Positions 28,626 through 35,144 of a DNA stretch of 64,000 nucleotides are shown in pieces. The notes beneath the pieces were generated by a model. It was not told where the DNA came from, did no database searches, and saw only the letters and a list, made by a program, of their open reading frames with translations. The stretch is from Candidatus Methanoplasma cognatum (GTDB taxonomy: Archaea > Thermoplasmatota > Thermoplasmata > Methanomassiliicoccales > Methanomethylophilaceae), in assembly GCA_009777615.1 (NCBI GenBank), contig WRLM01000001.1, forward strand, positions 248,001 through 312,000, written 5' to 3'. The translations under genes were made by a program, and so were the position numbers. Positions within the stretch are counted from its first letter, which is position 1, and each line of letters opens with the position of its first letter.

Positions 28626-28964
28626 GATAGGGTTAATAAAATTTCTCTTTTTAATACTTCTTGGTGTAAGCACGGGATGGTTTTTGTTTCTACATACGAA
28701 TTTATTTTTCTTATGCATAACTACTACTATTTATAAGGTAGAATTACCGTTTAATGAAATATCAATTTACTTAAGTCAAAATCATATCTGGGTATTCTAA
28801 AAAAAAGCTAATCTCAAAATTGTATTAAGAATTTTTGATAGAGAAAAGAAACGTCATCAAAAAACGATTTACAGTATTTAAAATATTACGTAGTAAGTGC
28901 TTTAAGACAAAAGATTATACACCAACCTGTTCCAATTACCAATTGGCATAACGGAGGCAAGGAT
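28626..28964 (+). other. AT-rich divergent intergenic region upstream of hdrA
   Basis: About 340 bases without a gene, much richer in A+T than the flanks. It holds promoters for both directions. TATTTAAAATA near 28875-28885 suits hdrA, implying a leader of about 60 bases that includes the inverted repeat at 28932-28946 and the GGAGG at 28953-28957. I see no structured RNA here. Confidence 0.5.
28932..28946 (+). promoter_or_regulatory. Inverted repeat in the hdrA leader
   Basis: CCAATT and AATTGG flank ACC just before the ribosome-binding GGAGG of hdrA. The position, downstream of the promoter and beside the ribosome site, would suit a repressor or a translational control protein. Confidence 0.4.
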
Positions 28965-31900
28965 TTGACAAAATCAGCATTAGTTATCGGCGGAGGCATC
29001 GCTGGTATACAGGCGTCGTTGGATCTTGCGGACAGGGACATACACGTTTATCTTGTGGAAAAACTCCCCACGATAGGCGGTACGATGTCCCGTCTTGACA
29101 AGACGTTCCCGACGAACGACTGTTCGGCATGTATCCTCTCGCCAAAAATGGCGGACTGTATCGGACACCCGAACATAACCACCCTGACATTCCACGAAGT
29201 GATGAAAGTGGACGGCAAAGCAGGGGATTTCAAGGTCACTCTCAAGAAGAAGGCGAGATATGTCGATCCTTCGTCTTGTACCGCATGCGGCGACTGTCTC
29301 GGAAAATGTCCGTCCAAAGGGATACCCGACGAGTTCGAGTACGGTCTGACCACCAGAAGGGCCATATACATACCCCATGCGCAGGCGGTGCCGAGGGTCG
29401 CCATCATAGACGCGGCCAACTGCAGGATGATACAGAACGGCAAGTGCGGCGTGTGCGCAAAAACATGTCAAAAGAAAGCGATAAACTACGAGGACAAGGA
29501 CGAAGAGCTCCAGATCGAGGTCGGCTCCATCATAGCCGCGCCCGGACTGAAGGTATGGGACGCCGCTCTCGCGACGGAATATGGCTACGGCAGGTTCAAG
29601 AACGTGGTCACCGCCCTTGAGTTTGAGAGGATAATGTGCGCGTCCGGCCCGGCAAGGGGACACATAACGGTCCCGTCGTCTGGCGAGGAGCCCAAGAAGA
29701 TCGCATTCATACAGTGCTGCGGTTCAAGGTCTGAGAAGTCCGGCTGGAAGAAGTACTGTTCGTCGGTGTGCTGCATGTACGCCACAAAGGAGGCCATAAT
29801 CACAAAAGAGCACCTCGACGTCCAAGAGGACATATTCTTCATGGACATAAGGTCCTACGGCAAGGAGTTCGAGGCATATATCGAGAGGGCTCAGAAGGAG
29901 TACGGGATAGGGATGCACAGATCCGCCCGCGTTTCGAATGTTGACGAGGACCCGGAGACAAAGAAGCTCACGGTCAGCTACACTGACCCCAAAGGCGACG
30001 GCGCGTCGGAAGAGTATGACATGGTCGTGCTTTCCATCGGACTCAACCCGCCGGACGGCGCGGTCGACCTCGCAAAGATCCTCGGTATAGATCTCAACGA
30101 GTACGGCTTCTGCAAAACATCGGTGTTCAACCCCCTCGAGACCACGAGAGAGGGAGTGTTCGTGACGGGCGCGTTCGCCGCACCCAAGGACATCCCCACC
30201 TCGGTGGCCGAGGCGAGCGGATCGGCGGCAAAGGCCGGCGCTTACATAGTGGACGACAAGTTCATACCCCGCGCACCGAAAGAGTATCCCGCCGAGAAGG
30301 ATGTCGAAGGCAAAGAGCCCCGCATCGGAGTATGGGTATGCCACTGCGGCATTAACATAGGATCCGTGGTAGACGTCCCGGCAGTAGCGGAATATGCAAA
30401 GACGCTTCCCAACGTGGTTCTCTCGAAGCAGTCGCAGTACGCCTGCGCCCAGGACTGCCTGGAAGAGATATCCACCGCCATCAAAGAGATGGACCTCAAC
30501 AGGGTTGTGGTCGCATCATGCACCCCCAGAACTCACGAACCGCTCTTCAGAGAGGCTTGCAGGGACGGCGGACTGAACAAATACCTGTTCAACATGGCGA
30601 ACATCCGCGACCAGTGCTCGTGGATCCACATGCACGCGGCGGAGGCCGCCACCGTGAAATCGAAGGACCTTTTAAGAATGGCGATCGCTAAGGTCGCGCT
30701 CCTAGAGCCGCTGGTCGGTTCCGAGATAGAGGTCACCAGGTCGGCGGCGGTCATCGGCGGCGGCATAACCGGAATGACGGCGGCCCTCGACATAGCCGCA
30801 CAGGGAATACCCGTGCACCTTATCGAAAAGGAGAAAGAGCTCGGAGGGTTCGCGCTCAACTTCCGCCACAAAGAGGACGGCAAGGACGTTGCCGCATTCA
30901 TAAAAGAGCTGGTAGGGAAGATCGAGAGCAACAAGAAGATCACTGTGTACAAAGGAGCGACAGTCGTCGACATCCCCGGCTTCGTAGGTAACTTCAAAGT
31001 CATCCTGAACGGAGGTAAGGAGATACCCGTCGGCGCGGTGCTGTTCGCGACAGGAGCCGCTCAGTACAAACCTACAGAGTACAAATACGGCTCGGACAAG
31101 AAGGTCATGACGACCCTGGAGGTCGAGAACGCTCTGGCGAGCGACAAGTTCAGCGGAAAGGACGTAGCCTTCGTGCAGTGTGTGGGATCAAGGAACAGCG
31201 CCGTGAAATATTGTTCACGTGTGTGCTGCGCCGGAGCCCTGCGCAACGCCATCCAGATAAAGATGAAGGACCCCACGGCGAATGTCGCGATAATTCACAA
31301 AGATATCAGAACATACGGGTTCCGCGAGGAGCTCTACAACAAGGCGTCCAGTCTCGGCGTCAAGTTCCTGAGGTACTGCGCCGACGACGCGCTGCCGGAC
31401 TTTGACGGAAAGACGGTGAAAGCCCACGACTCGATACTCGGAAGGGATGTGGAGATACCGGTGGACACGCTGGTTCTCGCAGCCGGATTGGCGCCCCTCC
31501 GCGAAGAGAAGGAAGAGCTCGCAAAGATGGTGAAGATCCCGATCAGCAAGGACGGGTTCTTCTTCGAGGCGCACCAGAAACTCAGGCCGGTGGACTTCGC
31601 CACCGAAGGAGTGTATGTCGCCGGTTCCGCACACTGGCCGAAGTTCATGGACGAGTGCATCGCCCAGGGCTCGGGCGCGGCGGCGAGGATGCTCACCACC
31701 ATATCCAAGGACAAACTGATCTCTGAAGGCATAGTCGCCGTGTCCAACTCGGACCTGTGCGACGGATGCGGCGTGTGCGTGGGCTGCTGCGACTATAACG
31801 CAATAACCATCGTATGCGGGGACGACGGATCGCTCAGAAGCAACGTGAACCCCGGCCTCTGCAAAGGATGCGGCTCATGCGTGGCGTCCTGCCCGGCGGC

Positions 31901-31979
31901 GGCCATGGAGCAGAGAGGATTCAGGAACAAGCAGATAATCGCAGAGATAGACGCGTTGTTCGACAAGGCGGGAGTGTGA
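28965..31979 (+). CDS. hdrA: Heterodisulfide reductase subunit A, double-module form
   Basis: 1004 residues against about 650 for ordinary HdrA. Module one (1-440): FAD-binding VIGGGIAG at 7-14, DCSACILSPKM at 52-62, and two iron-sulfur motifs with cysteines at 105, 108, 111, 115 and at 153, 161, 164, 168. Module two begins with the HdrA-type GVWVCHCGINIG near 457, then a second FAD site VIGGGITG near 593-600, and ends with two ferredoxin clusters, CDGCGVCVGCC near 930 and CKGCGSCVASCP near 963. HdrA bifurcates electrons from hydrogenase to ferredoxin and CoM-S-S-CoB. It starts at TTG 28965 behind GGAGG and heads the hdrA-mvhDGA operon; hdrB and hdrC are not here. Confidence 0.92.
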   Translation: MTKSALVIGGGIAGIQASLDLADRDIHVYLVEKLPTIGGTMSRLDKTFPTNDCSACILSPKMADCIGHPNITTLTFHEVMKVDGKAGDFKVTLKKKARYVDPSSCTACGDCLGKCPSKGIPDEFEYGLTTRRAIYIPHAQAVPRVAIIDAANCRMIQNGKCGVCAKTCQKKAINYEDKDEELQIEVGSIIAAPGLKVWDAALATEYGYGRFKNVVTALEFERIMCASGPARGHITVPSSGEEPKKIAFIQCCGSRSEKSGWKKYCSSVCCMYATKEAIITKEHLDVQEDIFFMDIRSYGKEFEAYIERAQKEYGIGMHRSARVSNVDEDPETKKLTVSYTDPKGDGASEEYDMVVLSIGLNPPDGAVDLAKILGIDLNEYGFCKTSVFNPLETTREGVFVTGAFAAPKDIPTSVAEASGSAAKAGAYIVDDKFIPRAPKEYPAEKDVEGKEPRIGVWVCHCGINIGSVVDVPAVAEYAKTLPNVVLSKQSQYACAQDCLEEISTAIKEMDLNRVVVASCTPRTHEPLFREACRDGGLNKYLFNMANIRDQCSWIHMHAAEAATVKSKDLLRMAIAKVALLEPLVGSEIEVTRSAAVIGGGITGMTAALDIAAQGIPVHLIEKEKELGGFALNFRHKEDGKDVAAFIKELVGKIESNKKITVYKGATVVDIPGFVGNFKVILNGGKEIPVGAVLFATGAAQYKPTEYKYGSDKKVMTTLEVENALASDKFSGKDVAFVQCVGSRNSAVKYCSRVCCAGALRNAIQIKMKDPTANVAIIHKDIRTYGFREELYNKASSLGVKFLRYCADDALPDFDGKTVKAHDSILGRDVEIPVDTLVLAAGLAPLREEKEELAKMVKIPISKDGFFFEAHQKLRPVDFATEGVYVAGSAHWPKFMDECIAQGSGAAARMLTTISKDKLISEGIVAVSNSDLCDGCGVCVGCCDYNAITIVCGDDGSLRSNVNPGLCKGCGSCVASCPAAAMEQRGFRNKQIIAEIDALFDKAGV

Positions 31980-31983
31980 AGAA

Positions 31984-32397
31984 ATGTCAGACTTTGAACC
32001 AAAGATCGTAGCATTCTGCTGCAACTGGTGCTCCTATGCCGGAGCGGACGGAGCAGGCGTGGCAAGACTGCAGATGCCCCCCAACTTCCGTATAATAAGG
32101 ACGATGTGCTCGGCAAGGGTAGATCCGGAATTTATATTAAGGTCCCTCGCGAAAGGGGCGGACGGGGTCATAATACTGGGCTGCCACCCGGCGGACTGCC
32201 ACTACATAGGCGGCAACTACAGAGCAAGAAGAAGAATAGCACTGATAAGAATGGTGCTTGAACAGTACGGGTTCGACCCGAGGAGACTGAAGCTCGAATG
32301 GGTCTCAGCTTCCGAGGGAGAGAAGTTCCAAAAGACCCTGACGGATTTCGTCGGCACGATCAAGGAACTCGGACCCACCCCATTGAAGGAGGAATAA
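31984..32397 (+). CDS. mvhD: F420-non-reducing hydrogenase iron-sulfur subunit MvhD
   Basis: 137 residues with FCCNWCSYAGAD near residue 11 and CxxxR/ILGCHPADCHY near 42-75, the cysteines that bind the [2Fe-2S] cluster linking hydrogenase to HdrA. It begins four bases after hdrA, and its stop is one base before mvhG. It acts in the soluble MvhADG-HdrABC complex in the cytoplasm. Confidence 0.94.
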   Translation: MSDFEPKIVAFCCNWCSYAGADGAGVARLQMPPNFRIIRTMCSARVDPEFILRSLAKGADGVIILGCHPADCHYIGGNYRARRRIALIRMVLEQYGFDPRRLKLEWVSASEGEKFQKTLTDFVGTIKELGPTPLKEE

Positions 32398-32398
32398 G

Positions 32399-33622
32399 AT
32401 GTCATTCTTTGACAGATTCAAGAAAAAGGACAAGGCGGCGGCGCCAAAACAGAGCGCGGCGAAGCCGGCCAAGAAAGAGAGCAAGCCCCCTGCGCAGGGA
32501 GCGGTGTGCTACCAGAAGACCCCTGAGTCGATAGAAGCGGCGCAGCTCAAGCCGGCGGACCTAGGAGATCTCCTCCCCGGAGCACCCCCCAACGGCAAGC
32601 TCAACCTGGCGATATACTGGGCGGCCGCCTGCGGAGGCTGCGACGTCTCCATCCTTGACATAAACGAGAGGATACTCACCGTCGGCGACATAGCGAACGT
32701 CGTCATGTGGCCGATTGCGGCTGACGGAAAGGAACATGACATCGCCGAGATGGAGGACGGCTCGATAACCGTATCCATAATATCCGGCGCCGTCAGGAAC
32801 ACCGAGAACGAACACATGGTAAAACTGCTGAGGAAGAAGTCGCTTCTGGTGGTATCGTACGGAGCGTGCGCATGCTTCGGAGGATCCCCTGCGCTTGCGA
32901 ACCTCGTTCCGGGCGGGAAAGATGAGATCATCGAGTACGCGTACAACAAGGTGCCCACCACGGCGAACTTCCAGGCCGACTATCACAAGGGCGAGCCGGT
33001 GCTCCCCCAGGTAGAATACAGCGCCCCGGAGGGCGTTCTGACGCTTCCGGTCCTGTACGACACGGTCAAAACGCTTGACCAGGTCATCGACGTTGATTAC
33101 TACGTTCCAGGATGCCCCCCGCTGCAGGAATCCATTTCTTACATGCTTAAAGCGGTCGCGGACTTCGCGTACAAAGGCGTAGCTCTTCCGCCCAAGGGAA
33201 CCAACATCGGAGTTGTCACTAAGACGCTCTGCGAACAGTGCCCGAGGCGCAAGGAATCCAGAAGGATAACGAAGATAGTGGAGCCGCACGAGATAGACGT
33301 CGACCCCGAGCTGTGTCTGATGGACCAGGGCATACTCTGCCTCGGACCGGCCACGGTCGGAGGGTGCAACGCAAAGTGCACAAGGGTCGGGCAGCCCTGC
33401 CGCGGATGCTACGGACCAACCGTAGCGGTCCAGGAACAGGGCGCAAGCGCCCTCACCGCGATAGCGTCGCTGTTCCCCGTACTGGATGACGACGCGACGA
33501 TGGGCGAGGATAAGATCATAGACATCATGTCGACGGTAAAGGACCCGCTGGGATACTTCTATGCATTCACAATGGGCAAATCTCTGATAAAGAGGTCCGT
33601 CGTAGAAAAAGGAGGTAAGTAA
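32399..33622 (+). CDS. mvhG: F420-non-reducing hydrogenase small subunit MvhG
   Basis: 407 residues. A lysine/alanine-rich, probably disordered N-terminal extension of about 50 residues (RFKKKDKAAAPKQ) precedes the hydrogenase small-subunit core, with CGGCDVSILD near 78 for the proximal cluster and YGACACFGG near 155. The C-terminal cysteine-rich part near 280-345 (CEQCPRRK, CLGPATVGGCNAKC, CRGCYG) binds further clusters. There is no twin-arginine signal, so it is cytosolic. It passes electrons from MvhA to MvhD. The extension is longer than usual for the family. Confidence 0.93.
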   Translation: MSFFDRFKKKDKAAAPKQSAAKPAKKESKPPAQGAVCYQKTPESIEAAQLKPADLGDLLPGAPPNGKLNLAIYWAAACGGCDVSILDINERILTVGDIANVVMWPIAADGKEHDIAEMEDGSITVSIISGAVRNTENEHMVKLLRKKSLLVVSYGACACFGGSPALANLVPGGKDEIIEYAYNKVPTTANFQADYHKGEPVLPQVEYSAPEGVLTLPVLYDTVKTLDQVIDVDYYVPGCPPLQESISYMLKAVADFAYKGVALPPKGTNIGVVTKTLCEQCPRRKESRRITKIVEPHEIDVDPELCLMDQGILCLGPATVGGCNAKCTRVGQPCRGCYGPTVAVQEQGASALTAIASLFPVLDDDATMGEDKIIDIMSTVKDPLGYFYAFTMGKSLIKRSVVEKGGK

Positions 33623-33623
33623 A

Positions 33624-35144
33624 ATGACAGGCCCCGTAATTTGGGACGATAAAAAGAAGGCCACATCCAACAGGGTGACCATTGACCCCATAACACGTCT
33701 CGAGGGTCACGGAAAGATAGAGATCTTCCTGGACGATTCCGGTAACGTGAGCAACGCATACTGGCAGGTCCCGGAGGTCAGAGGATTCGAAAGGTTCTGC
33801 GTCGGAAGGAAGGTAGTGGAGCTCAATCAGATAACGGCAAGGCTCTGCGGCGTCTGCCCGGGAGCACACCACCTGGCCTCAACGAAAGCGATAGACGGCT
33901 GCTACAACACGAAACCTACGGAGTCGGCATTCCGCATAAGGGATCTGTTCTACCATGCGCACTTTGTGCACAGCCATATAGCGCACTTCTATGCTCTGGC
34001 TGGTCCGGACTTCGTCTGCGGACCGGCAGCGCCGGCCGCCGAGAGGAACGTTCTGGGCGTAGTGGCGCGCGTCGGACTGGAATTGGGATCGGCCGTGCTG
34101 AAAGCCCGCGCCGAGGCGCAGAAGATCCAAGGTATAATCGGAGGAAAGCCCACTCACCCCGTGATGGGTGTTCCGGGCGGAGTGAGCAAGGCCATAAGCA
34201 AAGAGGAGGCCAAGGAGATCCAGGGATACGCCGACAACCTCGTAGCGTTCGCGGAAACGTCGCTGGGAGTGTTCAAGAGCGTAGTTCTTGAGAACAAGGA
34301 TTACCTGGACATAATCAAGAACCCGGACCTGTATTACAGCGAGTTATACAGCATGGGACTGGTCAACTCCAAGAACCAGCTCGAATTCCATGACGGACAG
34401 GTGAGGGTCGTCGACCCGAACGGTAAAGAGACGGACAAGTACGACCCGTACGACTACCTCGACCATATCGGAGAGGCGGTGGAACCCTGGTCATACGAGA
34501 AGTTCCCGTACCTCAGGAATCCCGGATACAAGGGACTGGTGGACGGAGTGGGAAGCGGAATGTACCGCGCAACCCCCCTCGGAAGGCTGAATGTCTCCGA
34601 CAGCATCTCCACCCCGAAGGCGCAGGCCGCGTTCGAGGAGTTCAGGGCGATATTCAAGAGCCTCGGCGTGGAGGGACCGGTACACTTCAACCTGGCGACC
34701 CACTGGGCAAGGATCATCGAGATGATCTACGCTGCCGAGAAGGTCCACCAGAATGCGTACGACCCGGACATCACCGACCCGAACATAAAGCAGAAGGACA
34801 TCGTCCCCGGAGGACGCGGAGTGGGATGTGTGGAGGCGCCGAGAGGAACGCTCACCCACGAGTACCACAGCGATGAGAACGGCATAGTCACAGCATGCAA
34901 CCTTGTTGTCGGAACGACCAACAACAACGGCCCCATGAACATCGACACCGTGAAGATCGCTAAAGCGCTGATCAAGGACCACATGATCTCCCCAGGTCTG
35001 CTGAACATGATCGAGATGGCGTTCAGGGTATATGATCCGTGCAACTCCTGCGCGACCCACAGCCTTCCGGGCCAGATGCCCATCAAGGCGGTCATCAGGA
35101 ACGCCGACGGCTCTGTGTACGATACCGTGACAAAGAACCTTTAA
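33624..35144 (+). CDS. mvhA: F420-non-reducing [NiFe] hydrogenase large subunit MvhA
   Basis: 506 residues, group 3c type. LEGHGKIEIF near residue 27, the N-terminal nickel ligand motif RLCGVCPGAHH at about 72-82 and the C-terminal DPCNSCATH near 471-479 are all present, so the active site is complete. About 27 residues follow the last histidine; the family is normally cleaved there by a maturation peptidase. It oxidises H2 for heterodisulfide and ferredoxin reduction. GGAGGT precedes the start, overlapping the end of mvhG. A hairpin terminator follows the stop. Confidence 0.95.
   Translation: MTGPVIWDDKKKATSNRVTIDPITRLEGHGKIEIFLDDSGNVSNAYWQVPEVRGFERFCVGRKVVELNQITARLCGVCPGAHHLASTKAIDGCYNTKPTESAFRIRDLFYHAHFVHSHIAHFYALAGPDFVCGPAAPAAERNVLGVVARVGLELGSAVLKARAEAQKIQGIIGGKPTHPVMGVPGGVSKAISKEEAKEIQGYADNLVAFAETSLGVFKSVVLENKDYLDIIKNPDLYYSELYSMGLVNSKNQLEFHDGQVRVVDPNGKETDKYDPYDYLDHIGEAVEPWSYEKFPYLRNPGYKGLVDGVGSGMYRATPLGRLNVSDSISTPKAQAAFEEFRAIFKSLGVEGPVHFNLATHWARIIEMIYAAEKVHQNAYDPDITDPNIKQKDIVPGGRGVGCVEAPRGTLTHEYHSDENGIVTACNLVVGTTNNNGPMNIDTVKIAKALIKDHMISPGLLNMIEMAFRVYDPCNSCATHSLPGQMPIKAVIRNADGSVYDTVTKNL

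Follow-up and report, generated by a model that had tools for sequence, protein, structure and literature searches.

Type I HdrA, known from the structures 5ODC, 8RVU and 7BKB, is a chain of ~650 aa that forms a symmetric dimer and carries one FAD and six 4Fe-4S clusters (PMC5861303), and longer relatives are already in print. In the passages on HdrA, Borrel et al. 2014 (PMC4153887) reported from three Methanomassiliicoccales a long HdrA with two FAD sites, encoded next to mvhDGA and apart from hdrBC, and proposed bifurcation by an HdrABC-MvhADG complex. Lyu et al. 2025 (PMC12054007), as cited here for type II HdrA, distinguish it by its extra thioredoxin reductase domain, infer that two different HdrA classes (A6 and A12) fused once, suggest that both flavins may bifurcate and state that no biochemistry exists for the type. 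In the section concerned with ANME, Chadwick et al. 2022 (PMC9012536) proposed that a fused HdrA is its own heterodimeric partner, given a complementary N-terminal domain and Cys197; fused double HdrAs are also listed in the relevant part of a survey of archaeal fusions (PMC11237513). The pair E356 and K409 of Methanothermococcus HdrA is described as the mark of a bifurcating flavin in the passages that treat it (PMC9430772, PMC12054007).

The window analysed here, a stretch of 64,000 nucleotides from Candidatus Methanoplasma cognatum, encodes an HdrA of this long kind in a single open frame (Table 1). Its TTG start is credible, because the flanking residues, like the Gly-Gly encoded by the ribosome-binding site, are similar in relatives. 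A phmmer comparison with the HdrA of 5odc gave three blocks (query residues 2-376 on 143-511, 450-595 on 1-148, and 862-1000 on 514-654), and alignment of both modules with type I HdrAs gave the domain order: core 1 with an inserted ferredoxin, CHCG domain, core 2, and C-terminal ferredoxin, with only a short linker (residues ~433-449) between the halves. All domains are homologous to those of type I HdrA. The initial annotation had described a first module with a DCSACIL insertion and two iron-sulfur motifs, and a second that begins with a CHCG domain, has its own FAD site and ends in two ferredoxin clusters; this description is correct, with DCSACIL at residues 52-58, the CHCG domain at 450-592 and the two C-terminal 4Fe-4S motifs between C932 and C976.

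Table 1. Features of the hdrA locus, in window coordinates
Feature	Position	Strand	Remarks
ribosome-binding site GGAGG	28953..28957	+	7 bases 5' of TTG; alike in relatives
hdrA type II, two FAD modules	28965..31979	+	1004 aa, TTG start
module 1, residues 1-440	28965..30284	+	FAD core corresponds to type I HdrA ~143-576
Cys56 codon	29130..29132	+	equivalent of Methanothermococcus HdrA Cys197
inserted ferredoxin domain, residues 96-185	29250..29519	+	eight Cys, two 4Fe-4S (predicted)
E221 and K275 (E356/K409 equivalents, bifurcating-flavin signature)	29625..29789	+	cluster Cys 251, 265, 269, 270 in between
HdrA N-terminal domain, residues 450-592	30312..30740	+	Cys 459, 461, 494, 519
module 2, residues 593-915	30741..31709	+	second FAD core; lacks the inserted ferredoxin and a Cys197 equivalent
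E721 and R760 (module-2 E356/K409 positions)	31125..31244	+	Lys to Arg; cluster Cys 739, 750, 754, 755 in between
C-terminal ferredoxin domain, residues 925-1000	31737..31964	+	two 4Fe-4S (predicted)
mvhD	31984..32397	+	FlpD match, 183 bits
mvhG-like hydrogenase small subunit	32399..33622	+	407 aa; longer than VhuG at both ends
mvhA, hydrogenase large subunit	33624..35144	+	third of the mvh genes

Both FAD modules were matched by Pfam Pyr_redox_2 and other models, and each contains a predicted FAD site with GxGxxG, a ribose-binding Glu and GG. A second domain lacking FAD-binding residues, which the initial annotation had named as a refuting case, is not what the sequence shows: module 2 keeps the FAD-binding glycines and the ribose-binding Glu. 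Module 1 lacks the N-terminal domain and the C-terminal ferredoxin, and module 2 lacks the inserted ferredoxin and the DCSxC motif. Judged from the aligned sequences, the protein is two complementary parts and not two whole HdrAs; the earlier description of two complete FAD modules in one chain is therefore correct for FAD binding only, since neither module is an entire HdrA. From ligand homology with type I we predict two FAD and seven 4Fe-4S clusters (two in the inserted ferredoxin, one in core 1, one in the N-terminal domain, one in core 2 and two in the C-terminal ferredoxin). The HdrA described by Borrel et al. 2014 (PMC4153887) shares the longer chain, the two FAD sites and the proposed bifurcation, although three 4Fe-4S centres instead of four are given in the passage cited. 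An AlphaFold2 model built with 93 sequences had a mean pLDDT of 91.4 and a pTM of 0.91. In VIA-align 2 comparisons, residues 1-432 superposed on the type I core 8rvu_a 150-576 (Z 53.7, rmsd 1.3, 423 aligned), and residues 450-1002 superposed on the whole HdrA chain 5odh_A 2-653 (Z 41.5, rmsd 3.4, 547 aligned) and on 7bkb_A (Z 40.5, rmsd 2.1, 544 aligned).

With two FAD domains the protein falls outside type I, which has a single FAD. MvhD is a separate open reading frame, not fused to the HdrA C-terminus as in type Ia, and residues 96-185 are a plain two-cluster domain with no GltD insert of the kind found in type III. It has the features of type II: two thioredoxin-reductase-like FAD domains, with the N-terminal domain and C-terminal ferredoxin on the C half only. 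Among the described relatives, ANME HdrA3/HdrA4 (PMC9012536) are likewise two-HdrA fusions with a complementary N-terminal domain and Cys197, for which pairing in cis has been proposed; in the text of that paper, however, the half with the N-terminal domain comes first and the half with Cys197 follows, the reverse of the order in the window HdrA. The order of the window HdrA also occurs in copies from ANME-2 (L096), Methanoperedens (L123, L139) and Methanosarcina (L152). The HdrA of Sporomusa ovata (PMC9430772) similarly has an extra N-terminal TrxR-like domain before an HdrA without inserted ferredoxin, and the E/K pair in one of two flavin domains; its partner is MetVF, the passage cited names no mvhAG in the cluster, and five 4Fe-4S clusters are predicted there.

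As the initial annotation had stated, hdrA adjoins mvhDGA and not hdrBC: mvhD, mvhG and mvhA follow directly on its 3' side with gaps of a few bases each, and the hdrCB pairs of this genome lie away from it on contigs C4 and C6. The gene set for an H2-dependent bifurcating HdrABC-MvhADG is complete, with mvhD, mvhG and mvhA beside hdrA and with hdrB and hdrC elsewhere in the genome, which contains only one full HdrA match and two ferredoxin-like fragments. Across families f1 (that of the window) and f4, mvhD stands immediately 3' of hdrA in all 32 loci with enough flank. The MvhG-like protein has ~65 extra N-terminal residues and additional C-terminal ones, its residues 67-357 matching positions 4-256 of the 286 of the VhuG model. 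We considered whether two HdrBC pairs are matched to the two HdrA cores; this genome does have two hdrCB pairs, but in eight of nine single-contig genomes of the order a single HdrB exceeds the TIGR03288 cut-off, so one HdrBC type suffices, and the idea was rejected. The ninth single-contig genome (G071) has two HdrB above the cut-off, one of them adjoining cooS.

A similar arrangement was seen in the genome of the window, where the second HdrCB pair lies in an apparent operon hdrC-hdrB-cooS (L059:5822-9136; about 115.8-119.1 kb on contig C4), the gene directly 3' of the pair encoding the carbon monoxide dehydrogenase catalytic subunit (TIGR01702, 750 bits). Of the order's nine best-scoring CooS loci (L162-L170, genera g1 and g8), eight have hdrCB directly beside cooS and the ninth has hdrC at the contig end; none of the next 11 (L171-L181) has hdrCB beside cooS. 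The arrangement suggests heterodisulfide reduction driven by CO without HdrA.

The architecture, which the initial annotation had set against an ordinary HdrA of one FAD domain and about 650 residues, proved to be already described as standard for the order, an outcome that the annotation had itself named as refuting its observation; this is clear both from the relevant text of Borrel et al. 2014 and from the genomes themselves. Matches to the window HdrA (E <= 1e-20) were found in 133 of 147 genomes of the order, including 74 of 74 high-quality ones (>=90% completeness, <=5% contamination); the 14 genomes without a match are incomplete. Each of the nine single-contig genomes of the order (G031, G034, G035, G037, G071, G072, G075, G077 and G135) has a match that is essentially full-length. 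At the level of the phylum, a match (E <= 1e-60) was found in 132 of 292 sampled genomes. Among named genomes, a collinear full-length frame is present in 78 of 80 loci (the best 80 of at least 584), the two others being split (L142) or bearing a large insertion (L145). Full-length named relatives among these best 80 come from Methanomethylophilaceae, Methanosarcina, ANME-2, Methanoperedens, Archaeoglobi, Lokiarchaeota, Chloroflexota, Thermodesulfobacteriota and others, and the close ones include a Candidatus Methanomethylophilaceae archaeon (L085, 78% identity) and a Methanomassiliicoccales archaeon (L117); we infer that f1 is the Methanomethylophilaceae. The window HdrA is thus an ordinary, already published type II architecture and the normal HdrA of its order.

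Two-gene forms, in which module 1 and the second half are adjacent genes, occur within the order beside fused copies (L044-L047) and in another family of the phylum (L062-L067), and they fit the earlier suggestion that the chain fuses two half-complexes, here a bare core joined to an arm-carrying core. In a quick tree of the cores, with support given by SH-aLRT only, 58 rows of type II N modules and split N genes group together (SH-aLRT 99), as do 57 rows of type II C modules and split C genes (SH-aLRT 99). Module 1 of the window groups with the former and module 2 with the latter. Split N rows fall with type II N modules, and split C rows with type II C modules in 10 of 11 cases; the eleventh (L046_17629) is a divergent HdrA that groups with type I. 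A recent tandem duplication was rejected, as in this quick tree the N and C modules lie in separate groups, each with its own split-gene relatives; the tree agrees with the separate clades and the single fusion inferred in the cited part of Lyu et al. (PMC12054007).

In the clusters at L044, L045, L046 and L047, two fused double HdrAs lie next to a copy that is split into two genes, most with their own mvhD. Two very long type II frames of 1520 and 1422 aa (L076:9441-14000, minus strand, and L145:4178-8443) have several hundred extra residues within the inserted ferredoxin domain, which may represent a GltD-like domain added to a type II backbone. An HdrA of 1130 aa (L068:522-3911) has a second module that can likewise be aligned with module 1 (over 3-434), so both modules may carry an inserted ferredoxin.

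Residue conservation was assessed in 148 sequences, namely the window copy and 147 relatives (50 from the order, 17 from the phylum and 80 named), which were picked for one collinear match over 900 residues and therefore cannot show the frequency of other domain orders; they include at least three duplicate pairs with the same gene or an identical core (L022/L058, L026/L057 and L071/L137). The E/K signature of module 1 is present in 148 of 148, counting the window copy and the duplicates. The Cys56 position holds Cys in 50/50 sequences of the order, 17/17 of the phylum and 47/80 named ones (the best 80 of at least 584), and the remaining 33 of these 80 have a UGA codon exactly there (DCxx-UGA), presumably encoding selenocysteine. 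Type II frames with an in-frame UGA (e.g., L129, L144 and L113) belong mostly to sulfate-reducer relatives. None of the 148 has a CxxC at the corresponding site of module 2, and Cys 459, 461, 494 and 519 of the N-terminal domain are kept in all 147 relatives.

At the module-2 signature positions, E and R occur in all 34 f1 and f4 loci, which are 32 distinct genes. The mvhDGA-linked copies in other families of the order have E/K in six of seven sequences and A/N in one, and E/K is complete in 48 of the 80 named relatives (the best 80 of at least 584). Lyu et al. (PMC12054007), in the passage cited, give E/K in both flavin domains for 75% of type II sequences, a common but not defining trait, whereas module 2 of the window HdrA has E721/R760. 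This family-specific change from K to R, which we did not find in print in the open-licence literature searched, is one small refinement to the published picture. The glycines that bind FAD, the ribose Glu and the four cluster Cys are all retained in module 2, and this speaks against a dead scaffold. A decayed module 2 was rejected on these residues and on its identity to the window HdrA, which averages 0.77 for the module-2 core versus 0.83 for the module-1 core across 33 f1 and f4 loci, and 0.44 versus 0.49 across the 80 named relatives (the best 80 of at least 584).

We consider it reasonably probable that the window protein is the ordinary type II HdrA of an H2-dependent HdrABC-MvhADG, a single-chain, desymmetrised pair that bifurcates at the module-1 FAD, with module 2 as scaffold or relay. 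Such a complex would couple heterodisulfide and ferredoxin reduction to H2. In an ordinary HdrA dimer, the mobile arm of one protomer (N-terminal domain, C-terminal ferredoxin and MvhD) feeds the FAD of the other, and an electron path from arm to other protomer is described for Elp-Hdr and Fdh-Hdr in the passage cited (PMC12350162). In the fused chain the arm domains lie on the second half, and the first half has the Cys197 equivalent, the E/K pair and the inserted ferredoxin as outlet, which fits the proposal of Chadwick et al. that such a chain pairs with itself. Given this division, the module-1 FAD would be the point at which electrons arriving from MvhD and the arm bifurcate, with the high-potential electron passing by way of the module-1 cluster (C251, 265, 269, 270) to HdrCB and the low-potential one leaving through the inserted ferredoxin. 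What the data show directly is the architecture, the conservation of ligands and signature residues, the gene context and the fold; the electron path, the pairing in cis and the role of module 2 are deduced from these. In the window's family, module 2, its bound FAD and cluster kept, would then serve as a scaffold or relay rather than bifurcate as well. As to the earlier idea that two flavins could change how electrons are split, the residues point to a single bifurcating flavin in this family, that of module 1; since six of seven mvhDGA-linked copies outside f1 and f4 have the module-2 E/K pair, this would be a trait of the family and not of type II. A point against this reading is that Arg is a conservative replacement for Lys and could still act on flavin N5.

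That both modules bifurcate, giving two events per chain, is what Lyu et al. suggest for type II in general and accords with the complete module-2 pair in those 48 named relatives and, in the window, with the retained E721, FAD-binding residues and cluster Cys; we nevertheless consider it unlikely for this protein, as the Lys is replaced by Arg in all 32 distinct f1 and f4 genes, and module 2 has neither an inserted ferredoxin outlet nor a partner arm, because module 1 lacks the arm domains. It is about equally improbable that long HdrAs homodimerise by trans pairing between module 1 of one chain and the other chain's second half, in a larger complex of four cores. In type I HdrA the dimer is obligate and Cys197 is a ligand in trans, and the natural split pairs indicate that the covalent link is dispensable, but the linker is short, one chain already has one arm and one full core, and the single-chain model reached the pTM of 0.91 given above.

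A role for the module-2 FAD as a second entry or exit point for another carrier is less probable still. The HdrA of the NADH-dependent Moorella complex has two flavins (PMC5861303), and only one of the two sites of the Sporomusa HdrA carries E/K, according to the passage cited (PMC9430772); the Moorella protein, however, has an extra GltD domain for NAD(P)H, no long insertion was found in the module-1 inserted-ferredoxin region of the 148 sequences, chosen for collinearity as they were, and the glycine motif in the second Rossmann fold of module 2 appears to be replaced by cluster Cys. An assembly or annotation artefact fusing two genes, for which the split forms elsewhere might speak, is refuted by the full-length frames in 9/9 single-contig genomes of the order and in relatives from other phyla.

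Since the architecture is already in print, what this analysis adds is a map of domains, ligands and residues, together with the family-specific K to R change. At somewhat less than an even chance, we propose that the fused HdrA of f1 is a one-site bifurcator, active in module 1 only, with the arm in cis on module 2, the module-2 lysine lost, FAD and cluster kept, and a single heterohexamer in place of a dimer of hexamers. Most methanogens have HdrA as their energy-coupling subunit, and members of this order are common in animal guts. A natural single-chain pair with two unlike flavins would let one test which flavin bifurcates and whether a dimer is needed, a test that is impossible with the symmetric HdrA.
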